DNA of 64,000 nt from Ceratorhiza oryzae-sativae (taxonomy: Eukaryota > Basidiomycota > Agaricomycetes > Cantharellales > Ceratobasidiaceae), in the NCBI GenBank assembly GCA_030998015.1, contig JARWMV010000234.1:2157703-2221702 (forward strand), given 5' to 3'. Below, piece by piece: positions 54,394-64,000 of this stretch (position 1 is the first letter of the stretch; each line of letters opens with the position of its first letter). The notes under the pieces are model-generated. The model did not search any database. It was not told where the DNA came from and worked only from the letters and a program-made list of their open reading frames with translations. The position numbers and the translations under genes are program-made.

Positions 54394-57300
54394 ATGAACG
54401 TTCCGTCGACGCCTGCGCCGCCTGGCGCACTACGCTCCATGTTCCGGTCGATCCTGCGGGAGCAGAACACGCCGGGGTCGGGGCGCAGCGTTCGATGGGG
54501 CGCCCGCAACGCCTTTCGCACGATCACGCCCGAGACGTCGGCCAACTCGACCGAAGGCGCGTTGACCGTGCCCAGCACGCCGCTGCTCGAGCACGAGGAG
54601 CACACGTCGTTTCTGGACCGACTGCGAGACGACAGCAACGACAGCAACGACGGGCGACCCCCGAGCGGGCGAGAAAAGATCGAGCAACTCGCTGCGCTTG
54701 GACAGAGTGTTGGTTCGAGGCTAGCGTCGGGTCCGTCGGTCGCCAGCGCGCCCCCTGCTCCTCTCTCCAAGTCGATGGCCCCCATTCCTCGGCCGCAGTT
54801 TGGTGGGCCTTGGACATCATCACCGCTGTCCCGAGACGACTCGAGCTTATCTCTTCCTCATTCCATGTCCCCTGCACAAGACTATTCCGTCTCCCACCGG
54901 CCGTTTGACATGTCGCGCGAGCTGGATGCTATCCCGATGCAACTCGGCAACGACAGTATGGCTTCTACCACTAGAGGCGCCGCTCTAGCCGCAGACCAAG
55001 ACACCCGGTACCATTCCGACTCCTTAGACGTGTCACGCAGTGCCGCCCAAGATGTCCTGCCCTCTTCTGGCCCCAACGAAACCGCAGCAGGCGGCATGAC
55101 CACACGGTACCCGCCCGGCATGTTCAACCTGACGAAAACACAACAACGCATTCCCTCTTTCTCCATCGACCCCGACTCGTCGGCCGAAAAGACGCGCATG
55201 TCGGGAGAACGAACCAGGGCATCGGCCCAAACAAGGACGAGAGATACAACCGGCTCGAGCTCGCTTGATTTCATCACTGCGAGCGCTGGCTCAAGAGGGT
55301 CTACACCTGGGCCTGGCCCTGTGCTCGATGCTGAACCGTCGCCGGGCTCTGCACATGCTCGCTCCCAATCCCTTTCCATGTCCGGCTCTCGATCCAGGTT
55401 TTTGTCTCGTGCGACGACGACAGCTCCGCCTCGAGAGCTACTCGAGCCTACGGAAATCACCGCCCAGGAGCTCCCCACCCTTTATCCTCCTGGTTATGCC
55501 AAGTTCAACCAGACCACGGTCGTCCAGGTCGATCCCGAAAACATCCCTGAACTGTCGAGATTTTTCACGCCGATGCTCGGCGAAGAGGATACCACACGAC
55601 TCGGCCTCGGCCATGAATCCCACTCGAACCAGGACCAAACCGGCATCACGATCGCAGCAGCCGCAGCCGAAGACATCCCCCTTCCCATCTCCCCTCCTAC
55701 CTCGCTCTCGGGCTCGACCTCGTCGACGTCCTCGCTCCCCGCCCCAGCGGACCTAACCGCCCTCATCGAATCGCAATACAAAGCCGACCTCGCCGCGCAC
55801 GCCGCACTCGTCCCCATCCTCCTCTCCCGCGCCGAATCCGCCGAATCCAACGCCCGCCGGCTGACGACCGTCGTCAAACAGACCCGAGGACGCGTCAGGG
55901 AGCTCGAAGCGCTGTGCATCGAGTTGGGCGAACAGGTCGGGGTGTTGCGCGAGGAGCGAGAGTGGGTGATGAACACGGAGCGCACCGAGCTCGTTGGGCA
56001 GGTCTCGGATCGGTCCGGTGTCGGGGTCGGGGAGGAGGATGAGGAATCGGAGGACAAGATCGAGCTGTCTGGCGAGGCGATTCGAGATATCGACGAGGCG
56101 CTTCGACGGGCCGAGATCGAGGCGGGCCGGAGTCGGAGACGAAAAGACGAGCGGGACGCGGCTCGAAACACGATCAAGGACCTCGAGCGGCGGTTGAGAG
56201 AGATGGAGATTCGCGAGCGCGATTGGGAGGTGCGGGTCGAGAGGGAGCGCGACGGGCAAGGCGCGCGAGAGCGGGTTCAGGTGGAAAAGCAAGGTTGGGA
56301 GCGGGAGCGGATCGAGTTGCTGGATCGGTGCGTTCGGGCTGAAAAGGCCTTGGCGGATCTTCAGTCTGGTTCGGTTGTTGCTGCGTCGGGTGGGGCGGAA
56401 GAGGACAGGCTCAGGCGCGAGCTGGAGAATTACAAGTCAGAGGTCAACGCGCAGTGGAAGTATGCCGAGCAGGCCGACGAGAAGAATAGGCGCTTGGAGG
56501 AAGAGATCAAGGTCCTAAAAGCTCAGGTGAAAGAGTCTCGGGCGTCGAGTCCGCGAGGAGACGTCGACTGGCGTGCCAAAGAGGCGGAATGGAAGACCAA
56601 GGAAGCCGATTGGAAAGCCCGAGAGGCGGAATGGGAGCGCGAACGCCAAGAATGGGTCCCCACGCACCGATACGGCCAACTCCAGACCCAAATCGCCGAT
56701 CTCCAGGCGGAACGGGAAGCCCTGGCCGCCCAAGCAGGCGACATGGACCGACTGGAAACCGAGCTGGAAAACATGGCGGCCGAACTCGACAAGGCGGATA
56801 GCGAGATGGCGGTCTTGACCGATCGGGCGAGGCACGCGGAAGAAATGTACGTCGCTGCGCAAAAAGAGGTCGAGCGTGCCGAGGCGCGTGTGCAGGAGCT
56901 CGAGAACCGGTCTCGGTCGCCTGATCAGCGGACGATCAGGCGTCTGGAGCTGGAAAAGGAGGAGATGCTCGACGCTGTTCGGGATGCAGAGGATCGGTTG
57001 CGCGAGATGGAGGAGCGTGCCAAGGCGTTGGAGGCACGGTGCGCCAAGGCCGAGGAGGAGCGGAAGGACGTTCTTCGGGACCGGGCCGAGTTGGAGGATG
57101 AGCTGGAAAAGGTGCGGGTCAAGGCCGAGGACGGCATGCATATTGAGCAAGAGAGGAACGCTGTGAGTCGTTTGCCGTCGTGGTCGTCGGCAGGTATTCA
57201 TCGTTTGCGTGCAGCTGGCAGCAGAGCTTCGATCCGAGCAAGAGGCTCATGCAGCGCTGGCCCACGAACACGAACACCTCGTACGTCAGTTTGACGAGAT

Positions 57301-58212
57301 CGAGCGCGAACGCCAAGTTGCGCTCGAGAACCAACAGCGCCTCGAGGGCGTCGTCCGCACTCGCAACCAAGAGATTGCAGATGTAGAAGAGCGGTTGCTC
57401 GTTCAATCCCGCGAGGCCGAACAACTACGTGCCGCGACTCGAGAATTGGAAAAGGTCAAGATCCAGCGAGACGACGCGATCCAGGCCGAGGAACATCTCC
57501 GGGCCCAGCTCGAGGGTCGACAGAGCGTGGAAGTCAAGGCCTTGCGGGACAAGGTCGCCAAGCTCACGGACGAGACGAGTCGGCTGCAACGGCGGGTAAA
57601 CGAGCTCAAGGCCGAGAGCGCAGACAAGGAGGTCAAGATTGTGCAGCTGCATAAAGCCCGGGCGTTGGAAGCAGAGGATCGAGAGGGTTTGAATGTGGCG
57701 TTGCAGGCGAAGCAGCAAGAACTCGAGCTGGTGAGCCTTGTGGTTGGTGCCCTCGGGCCTTGGTTTACTGATGAGCGTAGATCAAACGAAAACTTGGCGT
57801 ACGCGGGACGGCGGGTGCGACTCCAGCACCCGGACGTGTTGCGAGGTTGAGCAGCACCCGACGAGAGTCTTTGGCGTCATCTGCGGCGTTTGAGACTCCT
57901 TTGCCCCGTGCTGCGCTAGCGCTTCGAGATGCGGCTCCGCCTCCCCCATCTGATTCGACTGCGTCGGTTCTCTCGTCGTCGGTGTCGAGCAACCTGCATT
58001 CCATCTCGACCAATCCCCTCCAAACGAGCACACGCGCGAACATATACGACGCGATGAGTAGTACCCCTGCGACGGTGAAACCGGTACGATCCTCATTACG
58101 AGGATTCTCGTCTTTGAGCGTGTCTGGCATCCGGGGGGTGCATTTCGCTCCGTCCGAGAGCAGTACGACCGAGAGTGGGACAGAAGACGCGGATGTGACG
58201 ATTCGCGAGTGA
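54394..58212 (+). CDS. Large coiled-coil protein, about 1,238 aa
   Basis: Three exons: 54394-57162, 57215-57730 and 57781-58212. Introns are 52 and 50 nt (GTGAGT...CAG and GTGAGC...TAG), both phase 0. The N-terminus has a short ordered motif (MFRSILREQNTPGSGRSVRW, residues about 15-34). About 400 residues rich in Ser, Pro and Thr follow, likely disordered. From about residue 450 to 1100 there is continuous heptad-like coiled coil, with a WKxKEAxW repeat at about 728-757. The C-terminus is basic and Ser-rich (IKRKLGV then SLASS). No enzyme motif is seen. Such a layout fits a cytoskeletal, spindle-pole or cell-end scaffold, but no named family was recognised. The GC-rich coding sequence is intact. 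Confidence 0.85.
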
Positions 58213-58866
58213 GAAGGGTCGCTCAATGATGATTTATGCTCTCTATACCTCAGGTTTTTGTTGGTGCCGATTGCGGATCATATATATGCACTCCCCAGCT
58301 TGACATTTTGTAGTTTATAGTTCATTATTAGTTTTTGGTTCCATTTTGATTCGTGCTTGGGGTGTTCGTTCTGCGTGTGGCTGGTGTACTATAGACTCCG
58401 TGACGCATACAATTGATGATTGTGGAACACATGCCCCACCGTTCTCCAAGCCTAGGCTGACCAATTAGCAACCTCGCAGCAAACCGTTTGCGACCGATTG
58501 CAAGGACCGTGCAACGTAATTCGTGAGTTATCTCGACGTGATTTGGAATTCATCGGCTCCGTACCAACCCTTGCACTGTTTTGCCCATGTGATATAATTC
58601 ACGGTTCTGGTGTGGTCGGACCGAGCCGATGCGAATTGGTTCCTGGTCCCCTCTTATTTGTTTCCTACTCGATCACCCTGTACAAGGCGTTTTGGTGGTT
58701 TATGCAGCATACGATCGATCCCTCCGATTAAATGCTATCGATGGTAAATATCTCGGCTCCAAGGTGGACCTTTCAAATCCGGCGGGTGGCAACGTGTTGT
58801 CACGTGCATCACATTCGGCTGATTGAAACTACGACGACACGATATCACAACCACATCGTAAACACA
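58213..58866. other. Intergenic region before the kinase gene
   Basis: It holds the 3' UTR of the coiled-coil gene and the 5' region of the kinase gene. A 77-codon open frame at 58498-58731 has no motif. No RNA gene is seen. Confidence 0.55.
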
Positions 58867-61800
58867 ATGGATTGGAACAAGTTTTATTTTGGACGATTTG
58901 TGGTGATTTTGGCTCATCCTCATGCTTCTGGCTGTATGGTTGACTGATTGATATTGTATAGGAGGTAAGAAGGCTGCCCAGACAGCTGCCCCACTACTCG
59001 CAATGCTTTTCTCCATAGGGGCATGAATCGGTAAAAGGAAATGTATGTATTCTATCCGCTTAACGGCTATTTATGCGCTTTGATAGACTTGTAACATTAC
59101 TCCAGCGCAATATTCGACCTATCCTTGGAGAATGGGTGCGTCGCATGTCTCCCACTGCACATGTGGCTATCTTTTCAAATTAACATCACATGACTTTAGC
59201 TTGTGAGCTGCCCTAGCTCACTCGACTCGCGACCTGTTTGACATATTTATGGTTGTTTTCGATGGCTTTCAGGTCGTGAGTACTTGGAGATCCTTGATCC
59301 TCATAGCAAATACCATCTGTGAATTTAGGATGTACGTGGGAGCCATTCGTCATATTTATCTTGACTAACGTTACGTACGAAAGAGGGTACGTGTTCTAGC
59401 CGGCTTGATCATGCCGTTCCAACAGTCCATCGGTGACATCTGTAGCGTGTGAGTGTCATTTGTTTCCTTGGCCGGCGACGTGTTCAAATACTTTTTGTAT
59501 AGCCGGTAGGTATTGTGAATGGTTCTGGTCTGTTTGTCTACTCAAACGGCAGGGTGTACGGCTTGTTATTCTATAGAAAGTAAGTGGCCCTTGGGTGCGC
59601 TGAATCTTATCGAAATCCCATGGCTTACTTTGTTTTAGGGCGTAAGTCGACCCACTGTTGGACAGGCCCTTAATCTGACGCTGCTGACCCCTTGATGGAT
59701 ACGATAGACAGTATGTGTTGTCCCATAGTTCTTCTTACATTTCGCTCAAGGGACATGTCCCGCTTTTTTACAGATGGTAAGTACACTCGCTGTTGGAGGC
59801 ATACAAGCATCTCATGAAGGATTTCTGCCATCATTAGCTCGTGAGTATCTGGTTCCTTGTGAGCTCTTGAAACACCCTGCTTATATGCAATGTCATTCCA
59901 ACAGTGGGTAAGTAATTTTTGTTGCCTGTCTATTCATGACTAAACGAAAACACTGTGTACAGGATGTGAGTCGCTTTGGTCTTTTCTAACAATTAACTCG
60001 CTCAATCGATGGAGGTTCCAGGATGTGAGTGGTTCGATGCTCGCTTACCGAGTTGGATTTAAGTCTTGTCATATAGAAAGTAAGGGAATTTATGGGCGAC
60101 CCGAATGAGCACTGATAAAAAGCGCTCTTCGTGTTCTCAGCGTGTAAGCGGCCAAGTTGCCCTGTTTTCTCATCTGACGAATCGTTCTAGGATGTAAGCC
60201 GGTATTCTATCGACTCCTCGAGCTCTTACGTTCAATTTGTTGCTTCAACCTAGCTTGTATGTGAATTGCCCTCATTTTTAGATTTATTTGTCGATGACAG
60301 GCGCTAGTTTGTGAGCTACCTTTGGATTAACGGACCAGTAGTGCTGAAGTAGGATTAATCATATCACACATGCGGTAGTTCGTAAGTCAGCTTCGAACTT
60401 CCTGCTGTGCTATTGATTTACCTGGCAATTCGCCGATAGTTTGTAAGTCTGTTTGGCTTTTAAGTAAGATTAAAAATGACAATTGACGTTGTGCCGACTC
60501 GCAGAAGGTGATACTATTTGCGCGCAATGATTGATTGTGGGACTGACGGATTCGACCTTACAATCCGATGCCCTCATTCAGCAAGTAAGCAGAATTTCTA
60601 GAAATTATGTCCAGAGTGACTGGAACTTATTTTCATTTCGTAGGATGTATGTTTGGATATAGCCTGGCCATGCTCAATCGCTTACCATAGCCGATACCAT
60701 AAAATAATCTATATATAGCTTGTGAGGCCTCCCCGATTCTTCTCGAATTGGTTGATTGATTTTTTTTCTAGGACGTAAGTTGCCAAACCCCTACAGCGTC
60801 TAAGCCACGGCTGAGCTTTATCTTAACTAGTCGGTAAGCCTACTTACCATCGGTGCGTAGGCGGCTGGCTGAGGATGCCGGCTCCTCACATATATAGTCC
60901 GTGAGTAACCCGAAAAAATAGTGGTGCTGATTTGAAGTGCATGATTGCCACGTTAATATATGCAGGAAGTGAGTACGATTTATTAAATTGATTATATGCG
61001 CTATATACACGTACTCGAATAGATGGTACGTCTTATTGCGGTGAGAATGATCCCATACTTTGACTGTGCAAATAACCCCTAGGAGGTAAGCCTATCATTG
61101 CAGCATATACTCGGAAATCCTAATGCTGCGAAATTTTGCAGGTGGGTCAGAGCCAGTACACCATCCGATCATTAGCCAAACTCTTTTCTAGGATGTAAGT
61201 TCCATCGTTCGTTCCTTCTATATTGGGCATATATTCATGGCGCTGTCAGTTTCTTCGCACGCACCCGGTCTATCGCAAGCCAATCCATATTCCATCGAAT
61301 CTCGTAAGAACTCGAGTTTTTCCTAGTACTGACTGACTACATTTGCACAGGCTGTTTCCGACATGGTGGCCTACTTGACTAAGCACGCCGGTATTGCTGA
61401 CCTCACAGCTGAATTGACGAAGTGGCAGACTCCTGACTACCCAACTGCCACGGGCGGGCAAGGCAATATCTATCTTGGGACCAAGCCAGGAGGTAGCTTG
61501 TTTGCTATAAAATGCATCACCCAGGCCGATGAGAAATATGCCAAAGTAGCTAGACCAGTGTTTTTGTTGCAAGTTACTCAACTTCCATTTCTAGCATACT
61601 GCTCGGGAATTAAGCACTTGGGCCAAGCTTAAACACCCAAATGTTTTGGAGCTATCCGGACTGGCGATGTTTCGCGGTCGGCTAGCAATGGTATCTCCGT
61701 GGATGGAAGGTGGCAGCGTCAAGGCTGTTTTGAAGAACAATCCTTCGATGGATCCTTATGCTATGGTAAGGGTTACAGTGTATTCCACTTGCGATTTTGA

Positions 61801-62597
61801 TTCATTCTTCGCAGTGCGAACAGCTTGTTGCAGTAATCAGTTATTTGCACCATCGGAATGTGGTACGTACAATGATTTTAAATATTAAGCTAGACCGCTC
61901 TTACCTTGGGTGATCAGATTCACGGAGATATAAAAGGAGTAAGTGTTGGCCTTGCTTCTAGTGTTCGATTGAAGACGACTTAGCTATGGCAGGACAATCT
62001 GCTCATGGGCCCTGATGGTAACCTCAAGTTGACCGACTTTGGACTCACTGTTATGCACGACAAAACTTTGCAATTCAGTGAAACCGATCCGGCTGGCGGC
62101 ACATTCCGCTGGATGGAACGTGTTGTTTACTCTTTGTTATTTTTGAGACTAACCGGTTATCCATACAGGCCCCAGAGTTATATCTCGAAGGAGCTGAGAT
62201 CTCGAAAGAGGGAGATATGTATGCGGTTGGCATGGTAGGTACCTCTGTTCGGAATTTACTTCTAATGATTCTTGTTGTTCAATTTATTGACTCATTGTGC
62301 AGACCATGCTCGTAAGAAAGAGTTTAACAGCGGGGCCAATGATGTACTAATCTTTCCTAGGAAATAATCACGGGCGACATTCCGTTCCGCGAGATTCGGT
62401 CTACCATAGCTGTCATTAAAGCCGTCAGTGAAGAGAAACTGACCCCCAATATTTCGGAACTGGAAAAGAAGCCCGTCTCCCCTCGGGCATACGTTATGAT
62501 TGCCGCTATGCATCGTTGCTGGCGAACTGACCCGAAGGAACGAGCGACTGCAGAGGAGATCGGTAACCTGGTATGGTCGGACCTACTCTTCCCATGA
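58867..62597 (+). CDS. TKL-like protein kinase with an extreme micro-exon N-terminal region
   Basis: The model has 45 exons and about 368 aa. First exon 58867-58902, then 58962-58964, 59019-59030 and 59106-59135, then 32 exons of 3 nt, then 61250-61303, 61351-61545, 61595-61765, 61815-61862, 61918-61938, 61993-62121, 62169-62234, 62303-62311 and 62361-62597 (TGA). All joins are phase 0. Kinase motifs: glycine loop ATGGQGNIYLG, catalytic Lys in FAIKCI, HGDIKGDNLL (HxD loop with Gly for Arg), TDFGL, RWM..APEL, GDMYAVGM and the final RATAEEI. Most resemble the TKL-type kinases abundant in Agaricomycetes. Two extra residues (ER) before APEL follow from the weak GTTGTT donor at 62122. The segment before the kinase domain has no recognised domain. 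The first exon and its GTGATT donor are the least certain part. Confidence 0.82.
59200..60193 (+). other. Single-codon exon array, part 1 (17 exons of 3 nt)
   Basis: Exon first bases and codons: 59200 CTT, 59273 GTC, 59329 GAT, 59384 AGG, 59446 CGT, 59503 CCG, 59577 AAA, 59639 GGC, 59708 ACA, 59774 ATG, 59838 CTC, 59905 TGG, 59963 GAT, 60022 GAT, 60077 AAA, 60141 CGT, 60191 GAT. Each is preceded by AG and followed by GTRNGN (mostly GTAAGT, GTGAGT or GTACGT). Intervening introns are 47-71 nt. None of the codons is a stop. Confidence 0.83.
60254..61194 (+). other. Single-codon exon array, part 2 (15 exons of 3 nt)
   Basis: Exon first bases and codons: 60254 CTT, 60308 TTT, 60379 TTC, 60440 TTT, 60505 AAG, 60582 CAA, 60644 GAT, 60719 CTT, 60772 GAC, 60831 TCG, 60898 TCC, 60966 GAA, 61023 ATG, 61083 GAG, 61192 GAT. 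Introns are 50-74 nt, except 61086-61191 (106 nt). That long gap contains GCAG followed by GTGGGTC at 61138-61148, at half distance. It may be a degenerate further unit (GTG codon with a lost GT donor) or a zero-length recursive site. Confidence 0.82.
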
Positions 62598-63128
62598 ATA
62601 TCTCGCTGAATTGAATCTAGCTGAAGCATATGGGCAAGTTTTAGCTTGGGGGCATTGGATCATGTAGAAATATGGTGAATGGGAATGAGATTCAGGATGA
62701 ACCCGGTTAATATCTGAGTGGAATTCTGTATAGAGGGTGATGATTCGATTATCCTCGGGTTTTTGAACTGCTCTACGCCTATGCATGCGCTGTGCGTACG
62801 AAGAGCGTTAGCGTCCAGTAACATAAGCTGCTCTGACAGCGCCTGGCGCTTCTCGCGATCAGGCAATCAACGACCCTCATCACTCTTCTTTGCTCGTGCG
62901 AGACTATCTCAACCAAAGGTGGTATTCAATTGATATATCAAGCAGCGTCGAAATCAACGGCTCATCTAAAAACGAGAAGACTACGAAGAGCTTGCAGCCC
63001 ATTCTTGCCAGATTTACCGGCCTTTATCCTCCTCTACCTGAAGACGACCGTGCTACGGCCTCGGGTCTTTTGCATATTTCCGTATATCTCGCTTTCATAT
63101 TCTTCAACTTTGATTCAATTTGCCGAGC
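62598..63128. other. Intergenic region, nothing recognised
   Basis: It lies between the kinase stop and the DUF4470-like start, both on the plus strand. No gene or RNA is seen. It should hold the kinase 3' UTR and the next promoter. Confidence 0.55.
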
Positions 63129-64000
63129 ATGTCGCACCCAATAGTGTGGATGTTCGACACAATGTTTTATCCCCTCGGGAATACGCCTGCATTGTGTCTT
63201 ACCCAAGATCTTTCGCCCGAGCAAGACGCAGAGATTCTTCTGCTTGGGTGTGGAGATCCTCGTAATCTCTTGTACACCCTATACGTGGACCTTACGACCA
63301 AAGGTATGGATCTTCCTCTTGGTCAGAGGGCAAAGTACTCATGAGCGGAATCCAGATAATCGAAAAATTGATGCCACATGTTGTGATATGGAACCGGCTG
63401 TGCTTGGTATACCACATTTTTAAATAGATCTTCCTTCCTACTTAAATTTCTTCTACTAGCCCGCAATGGTCTTCTGTTTGCGTTGATAGAACAAGACGTG
63501 GCCGCTTCGTGTTTATGGGACATATTTTTTCATTTCAAAATCAACAAGTCTGTAGCTTCTCAGTTGACAGCTACCGCTAGTAAGCTCTCGGAGGCTTCAA
63601 CGACAATTGAAGATTGGAAGCGGTCTAAATGGAGCTCTTACATGAAGCCGGTCGACCTGCAGACGCTCTCTGCACTTCGTCGGCACTGGAAATTCTACGC
63701 AACTTTTTTGAATTGCCTCCTAGCAAGATAGACGGATTTCGCCGAGAGCACTCCCAGCTTTCAAAGCGATTCACGGACACGATGGGGCAGAACGCTGGTA
63801 TCGGTCGATCTGCTGGGATATTCTGGGCTGATGCCATGACTCCCATGGCCAAATTATTCGAGCAGTATTGGGACAATGGCACTACATTTATCTCTCCCGA
63901 TGATATCAAGTCAGCGACAGAGCTCAATCCAACATTCGGATACTCTATGTCGGGCGAGAGGTTTAAACCACACTACGGAACTTTCCCTCAGGGTTTCCAT
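63129..64000 (+). CDS. DUF4470-like protein, 5' part, runs off the window
   Basis: Exons 63129-63303, 63356-63406 and 63460 onward, with introns of 52 and 53 nt in phase 1. The N-terminal part reads PLGNTPALCLTQDLSPEQDA, then LLLGCGDPRNLLYTLYVDL, CCDIEP-like CCDMEPAVLARN and LRRHWKFY. This series is typical of DUF4470 (often N-terminal in fungal MYND-finger proteins). A six-T run at 63702-63707 appears one base short: the frame ends at a TAG at 63729, while the +1 frame continues as LPPSKIDGFRREH to the window end. This is either a sequencing error or an inactivating indel. Function is unknown. Confidence 0.75.

Follow-up and report, generated by a model that had tools for sequence, protein, structure and literature searches.

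The window analysed here, a stretch of 64,000 nucleotides, contains a protein kinase gene whose 5' part reads, as far as the sequence can say, as a run of 32 consecutive exons of one codon each (59200-61194), and the same genome carries further arrays 5' of kinase genes, in which near-identical introns separate differing codons. We propose, with a probability of about 0.6, that the one-codon exons are spliced in frame into an N-terminal segment of the kinase, and that this segment is fast-evolving, its residues being reshuffled by recombination in the introns.

The gene model extends from the ATG at 58867 to the TGA at 62597 and comprises 45 exons and 369 codons, with GT-AG at all junctions and a frame that is open throughout; if the 0-nt place is taken as a single intron, 43 of its 44 introns have phase 0, and those between the kinase exons measure 47-68 nt. 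The claim of an earlier, sequence-only reading that the single codons are in phase with the kinase ORF is borne out by this model. A Pfam search with the hand-assembled window protein, in which two kinase exons were joined differently from the final model, gave PF00069 at 147.3 bits and PF07714 at 123.1 bits, and FAIK (the VAIK-type lysine), HGD (HxD) and DFG can be read in the model. With the hand-assembled proteins of the window and of its paralog L046, Pfam returned only kinase-type families and sub-threshold matches, with no NACHT, no ANK and no repeat domain. The APE motif is absent from the spliced model (62110-62190), which has RWMEQLYLEG; the AG-Ba relative P0052 has RWMEKLYLDG.

Several counts support the array. 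On its + strand, the 64-kb window has 42 matches to the pattern YAG-NNN-GTRNG, of which 32 fall within 58860-61260, where each exon length from 0 to 12 nt other than 3 gives 0-3 matches. The 32 matches comprise 30 of the 32 array exons, the upstream GAG at 58962 and a false GGT at 59553; the two other array exons, at 59384 and 60505, have slightly weaker splice signals and lie outside the pattern. GGT 59553 was rejected as an exon because the resulting intron would be only 21 nt long. A chain search between donor 59136 and acceptor 61249, with exon length left free (0-400 nt), a stop-free frame and, for the window only, a relaxed donor threshold, gave the identical solution whichever of the eight penalties was applied, with 32 exons of 3 nt, 34 introns and a single 0-nt AG|GT junction; the resulting peptide is LVDRRPKGTMLWDDKRDLFFFKQDLDSSEMED. 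Under a stricter donor threshold no chain was obtained for the window, nor for the paralog L054. When 40 Markov shuffles were searched with one penalty, 38 yielded a chain, the best scoring 42.7 vs 211.1 for the window, and none held more than two 3-nt exons; the longest strict chain was 21 in the window vs 2 in 1000 Markov shuffles. The sequence-only reading had counted the 32 exons correctly. Its remark that they contain no in-frame stop also holds, but a stop-free run of 32 codons is not evidence by itself because its probability is about 0.14. Unspliced, all six frames over the array contain 29-48 stops each. The array introns end in TAG or CAG in 33 cases and in AAG in one, and they resemble one another no more than shuffles do (mean pair score 11.32 vs 11.22 +/- 0.09). 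At the 0-nt junction, introns of 56 and 50 nt abut. Rfam gave no match over 55000-64000.

Table. Predicted exons and junctions of the window kinase gene (positions in the window)
Feature	Position	Strand	Basis or remark
Start exon MDWNKFYFGRFV	58867..58902	+	open from ATG, donor GTGATT
Single-codon exon GAG (E), upstream of array	58962..58964	+	GAA counterpart in four paralogs
Exon GHESVKGN	59019..59042	+	paralog counterpart EHDEIKGR
Exon RNIRPILGEW	59106..59135	+	paralog counterpart SEIRAEIARW / SEIRGEIGRW
Array: 32 one-codon exons alternating with 34 introns of 47-74 nt; one 0-nt junction	59136..61249	+	pattern count and chain search
Micro-exon 1 CTT L	59200..59202	+	chain search
Micro-exon 2 GTC V	59273..59275	+	chain search
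Micro-exon 3 GAT D	59329..59331	+	chain search
Micro-exon 4 AGG R	59384..59386	+	chain search
Micro-exon 5 CGT R	59446..59448	+	chain search
Micro-exon 6 CCG P	59503..59505	+	chain search
Micro-exon 7 AAA K	59577..59579	+	chain search
Micro-exon 8 GGC G	59639..59641	+	chain search
Micro-exon 9 ACA T	59708..59710	+	chain search
Micro-exon 10 ATG M	59774..59776	+	chain search
Micro-exon 11 CTC L	59838..59840	+	chain search
Micro-exon 12 TGG W	59905..59907	+	chain search
Micro-exon 13 GAT D	59963..59965	+	chain search
Micro-exon 14 GAT D	60022..60024	+	chain search
Micro-exon 15 AAA K	60077..60079	+	chain search
Micro-exon 16 CGT R	60141..60143	+	chain search
Micro-exon 17 GAT D	60191..60193	+	chain search
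Micro-exon 18 CTT L	60254..60256	+	chain search
Micro-exon 19 TTT F	60308..60310	+	chain search
Micro-exon 20 TTC F	60379..60381	+	chain search
Micro-exon 21 TTT F	60440..60442	+	chain search
Micro-exon 22 AAG K	60505..60507	+	chain search
Micro-exon 23 CAA Q	60582..60584	+	chain search
Micro-exon 24 GAT D	60644..60646	+	chain search
Micro-exon 25 CTT L	60719..60721	+	chain search
Micro-exon 26 GAC D	60772..60774	+	chain search
Micro-exon 27 TCG S	60831..60833	+	chain search
Micro-exon 28 TCC S	60898..60900	+	chain search
Micro-exon 29 GAA E	60966..60968	+	chain search
Micro-exon 30 ATG M	61023..61025	+	chain search
Micro-exon 31 GAG E	61083..61085	+	chain search
0-nt junction CAG|GTGGGT	61141..61142	+	TAG|GTGAGT at corresponding place in 68-nt paralogs
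Micro-exon 32 GAT D	61192..61194	+	chain search
54-nt exon FLRTHPVYRKPIHIPSNL	61250..61303	+	paralog counterpart FFHEHPGRKKPIHIDADT
Kinase exon	61351..61545	+	
Kinase exon	61595..61765	+	
Kinase exon	61815..61862	+	
Kinase exon IHGDIKG	61918..61938	+	
Kinase exon with DFG	61993..62119	+	sole intron outside phase 0 follows
Kinase exon	62176..62234	+	
9-nt kinase exon TML	62303..62311	+	
Last exon	62361..62597	+	stop TGA

Three further copies of the window locus (57700-63990), on contigs C15, C39 and C61, are 99.5-99.9% identical to it and are perhaps haplotypes. Over 59136-61249 the four copies differ at 21 positions (counted by hand, adjacent inserted bases once), none of them in the 96 exonic nt, which is weakly consistent with conservation of the codons, about one exonic variant being expected from so few variants. 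A single exonic variant, at 59042, is synonymous. Many of the differences among the copies lie inside the array, and several are indels in short runs. The copy L033 has a 3-nt insertion at the single-codon exon GAG (58959-58964), possibly an in-frame variant of exon length.

A protein search of the same genome revealed four more genes with arrays: L046 and L053 on contig C12, L054 on C47 and L055 on C251. Their layout is that of the window, with the array 5' of a related kinase; the array sequence itself is unrelated to the window's. The exons ahead of the array follow the same order as in the window (MSGRAWDNVDFGQIA or a variant of it, a single-codon E, EHDEIKGR, and SEIRAEIARW or SEIRGEIGRW), and the residues ahead of the FL/FF exon that follows the array are E-I-E-(0 nt)-A vs E-M-E-(0 nt)-D in the window. 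The repeat unit of these arrays measures 68 nt, a 65-nt intron plus one codon, and the four gene copies hold 66 such units. One identical intron sequence is present in 49 of the 66, followed by nine different codons, and site for site the codons are 55 times as diverse as the introns. No more than 11 codons occur among the 66 units, with few synonymous alternatives (three for Arg) and no stop codon. The codon strings share no evident order, as in RDRWIIWRDAQWIIW of L046 vs WIWARAARWAARLARD of L055, and they differ between copies whose flanks are 93-97% similar. The compared kinase exons, open in all four copies, differ by 10-23 of 681 nt (1.5-3.4%); nonsynonymous differences (6-18) outnumber synonymous ones (3-7) in all six pairs, so this comparison does not show strong constraint on these kinases. 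The chain search at the stricter threshold chose the tandem codons in L046, L053 and L055, plus longer exons outside the tandem units, and used the 0-nt junction in L046 and L053, not in L055. In one unit of L046 (about 4298 of the reverse complement) the codon and the acceptor CAG are apparently exchanged, leaving a 0-nt junction TTGGCAG|GTGAGT. Inside an intron of the C47 array (L054, about 1843-2011) lies an element of ~170 nt that by eye appears MITE-like, with inverted ends CTCGGCCAAAA...TTTTGGCCGAG and TA on its flanks.

A third array, on contig C24, consists of about 77 units of 62 nt 5' of a kinase and is unrelated to the window array. Its codons are mostly GAA, CGA, TTC, CTC and GCA, with one unit reading TGA, and their per-site diversity is 21 times that of the intron. 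Most of the 76 junctions leave 3 nt (63), the others 2 nt (six), 1 nt (three) or 0 nt (three), and one acceptor is damaged; the kinase exon has an apparent frameshift. Assembly error may account for the odd junctions, since several resemble single-base losses in short runs.

DNA searches of the genome placed matches to the 68-nt unit on C12, C47 and C251 alone and matches to the 62-nt unit on C24 alone; at this sensitivity the two units are mutually unrelated, as each matches its own arrays only. A genome scan by codon class, with clusters recognised by eye, pointed among the matches listed only to C15, C39, C61, C12 (two), C47, C251 and C24. The places listed were 100 of 156 for GAN (the window's own place not among them), 100 of 110 for NTT, and all 83, 81 and 93 for NGG, GCN and CGN, respectively; because the scan covered these places and codon classes, arrays with other codons or donors may be missed. 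The pattern YAGNNNGTRAGT was no commoner genome-wide than its reversed control (705 + 737 vs 777 + 813), and in the 16 other loci from the kinase search (L036-L045, L047-L052) 3-nt exons never occurred three or more in a row.

How might such genes be expressed and evolve? On the reading that we favour, splicing would assemble the array codons, in frame, into the N-terminal segment of the kinase. Intron definition is the probable route, since 3-nt exons are too short for exon definition and each array intron would be recognisable across itself, 47-74 nt being normal intron size here. Two adjacent introns can hardly be occupied simultaneously across a 3-nt exon, so their removal would probably be sequential; every step would add a codon, except at the 0-nt junctions, which add none. 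The sequence-only reading had already argued that intron definition or ordered splicing would be needed, and the argument from the one-codon exons supports it. The 21- to 55-fold difference in diversity rules out equal mutation of introns and codons; the best fit is that intron+codon units are duplicated and reshuffled under selection that favours varied residues. In the sister arrays, unequal recombination inside the near-identical introns would add, drop or permute single amino acids and leave the frame intact, because what repeats in the DNA there is an intron together with its codon; the window array would represent an older, settled version whose introns have since drifted apart. By analogy with fungal non-self recognition genes, the segment would most likely serve as a fast-diversifying interaction or recognition module steering the kinase. 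More tentatively, at somewhat less than even odds, the system could be regarded as exon shuffling at its finest grain, in which introns act as homologous spacers and recombination permutes, adds or deletes single residues in frame; it would merge, at one locus of a kinase family, repeat reshuffling with 3-bp mini-exons, both already known as ways in which recognition genes of fungi diversify, and would add an ordered, codon-by-codon splicing.

Variation could also arise at the RNA level, and this is the alternative that survives best, if still somewhat unlikely; it is compatible with the assembly of codons by splicing that we favour. Donors would pair with later acceptors and skip codons, giving a family of isoforms as in the NLR genes of truffles, where this is stated for Tuber in the available text of PMC9815663 and PMC4986451. 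Because the array introns all have phase 0, any codon can be skipped without loss of frame, and the donors and acceptors of the tandem arrays are near-identical copies. However, the window introns differ from one another, and skipping a single codon needs an intron of about 100 nt or more vs 47-74 nt elsewhere in the gene.

Less probable is the insertion of mobile introns, introner- or stwintron-like, at codon boundaries, the codons being old coding sequence. This would account for near-identical introns around different codons, and duplicating introns are documented in other fungi in the accessible part of PMC12403724. Against it, the genome DNA searches of the 68-nt and 62-nt units gave no match outside their own arrays, and so no sign of introner-type dispersal; codon strings differ in copies with flanks as similar as those described above; and the small codon sets (11 codons in 66 units), with their few synonymous alternatives, are those expected of copied units. 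Intron insertion into old coding sequence is less likely for these reasons: strings that differ in young copies, small codon sets and no solo units matched. The massive intron gain of the sequence-only reading fits the paralog arrays poorly, as the same intron is tandemly repeated there and the codons differ between copies whose kinase exons are 1.5-3.4% apart; the window's 34 unrelated introns allow no reading on this point.

It is improbable that splicing removes the entire stretch as a single intron or a few, the triplets never being translated and the kinase starting downstream. Among the kinase relatives listed (120 of 316 found, with a hand-assembled L046 query), five Ceratobasidium kinases labelled partial (P0004, P0010, P0024, P0041 and P0046) begin exactly at the FF exon, and P0001 begins further in. 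The N-terminus itself has no protein match: a search with window residues 1-82 (the query having one extra residue) gave one candidate and none at E<=10. Starts at the FF exon are expected if nothing is coded upstream, but missing annotation is also expected if gene finders skip, or cannot follow, 3-nt exons. Exactly 3 nt between good junctions in 32 unrelated units would hardly be expected of untranslated DNA, nor would triplets whose per-site diversity exceeds that of the adjacent intron 21- to 55-fold. A decaying minisatellite in a pseudogene is about as improbable: the apparent frameshift and irregular junctions of C24 and the excess of nonsynonymous changes among the 68-nt copies would suit it, but the frame of the window gene has no interruption, nor have those of the four 68-nt copies over the 681 kinase nt compared, and the variation is concentrated in the triplets. 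We consider least probable of all the suggestion of the sequence-only reading that the introns form a splicing-based gate limiting kinase output, for which the full kinase does need removal of 44 introns (45 if the 0-nt junction is used), because a gate has no need for differing codons between near-identical introns.

The kind of structure is already known. The sequence-only reading knew of no such run, yet the NACHT-ANK (nank) genes of Tuber melanosporum contain 3-bp mini-exons by the dozens, according to the available portions of PMC4986451, PMC9815663 and PMC10197012, which credit Iotti et al. 2012. As described in those portions, the truffle family strings together dozens of codon-sized exons and is thought to act in recognition. 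The family found here shares the many consecutive 3-nt exons (32 in the window, 66 units in the four 68-nt copies, and 63 of the 76 junctions of C24) and, by analogy, would share the role. The truffle genes encode NLRs whose recognition domain is C-terminal, they belong to an ascomycete and their alternative splicing is reported, whereas here the gene is a kinase, the array N-terminal and the fungus probably a basidiomycete. New are the kinase family, the probable basidiomycete host and the tandem intron+codon units; the open literature searched contained no kinase family with near-identical introns and variable codons.

Other systems share single features. The recognition genes het-d, het-e and het-r of Podospora combine instability of WD repeats with concerted evolution, in the text available from PMC2873952. 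NLR repeats of high internal conservation, as presented in the consulted parts of PMC2873952 and PMC9815663, are near-identical, with few variable positions, and are reshuffled by recombination; the 68-nt and 62-nt arrays resemble them, unlike the window array. In the Podospora genes, to judge from the same text, the constant part is protein (the WD repeat), whereas here it is the intron and the whole exon varies, the repeat unit being an intron plus one codon and not a protein repeat such as WD40, TPR or ANK. The single-nucleotide exon of Fusarium CYP621A, described in the accessible section of PMC12940212, likewise sits between short fungal introns, but it is isolated, and the runs here count 32 to about 77. 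Xylariales stwintrons (PMC12403724) and zero-nucleotide recursive splice sites (PMC13149111) have, in the excerpts available, abutting or nested introns that are excised stepwise, and AG|GT junctions occur here too; unlike the arrays here, they deposit no codon between steps, and sister stwintrons lie at new intron positions.

Should the codons be spliced in, the assembly of a protein segment from exons of one codon would be known from two gene families, probably of different fungal phyla, and this would suggest convergence. With introns near constant and the residue varying, the 68-nt and 62-nt arrays allow mutation to be told apart from selection, and offer a natural experiment on how the spliceosome copes with exons smaller than its footprint. 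With the codons spliced in, annotations of related kinases would lack part of the N-terminus.

Judging by the closest named protein matches, the fungus probably belongs in or near Ceratobasidium. Among the listed relatives, the Ceratobasidium kinases that start at the FF exon may mark related arrays in other species of the genus; others listed have varied residues upstream of this exon. One of the latter, P0034, is an intron-free kinase on a contig of 1338 nt, with ...ARELERELEFARYLGRLPIELNEIAK directly before the FF exon, which counts in favour of the reading proposed above; because the introns are missing, the contig is probably a transcript (cDNA). Its predicted structure has helices at residues 2-18 and 24-35, at modest confidence (block pLDDT 57-73).
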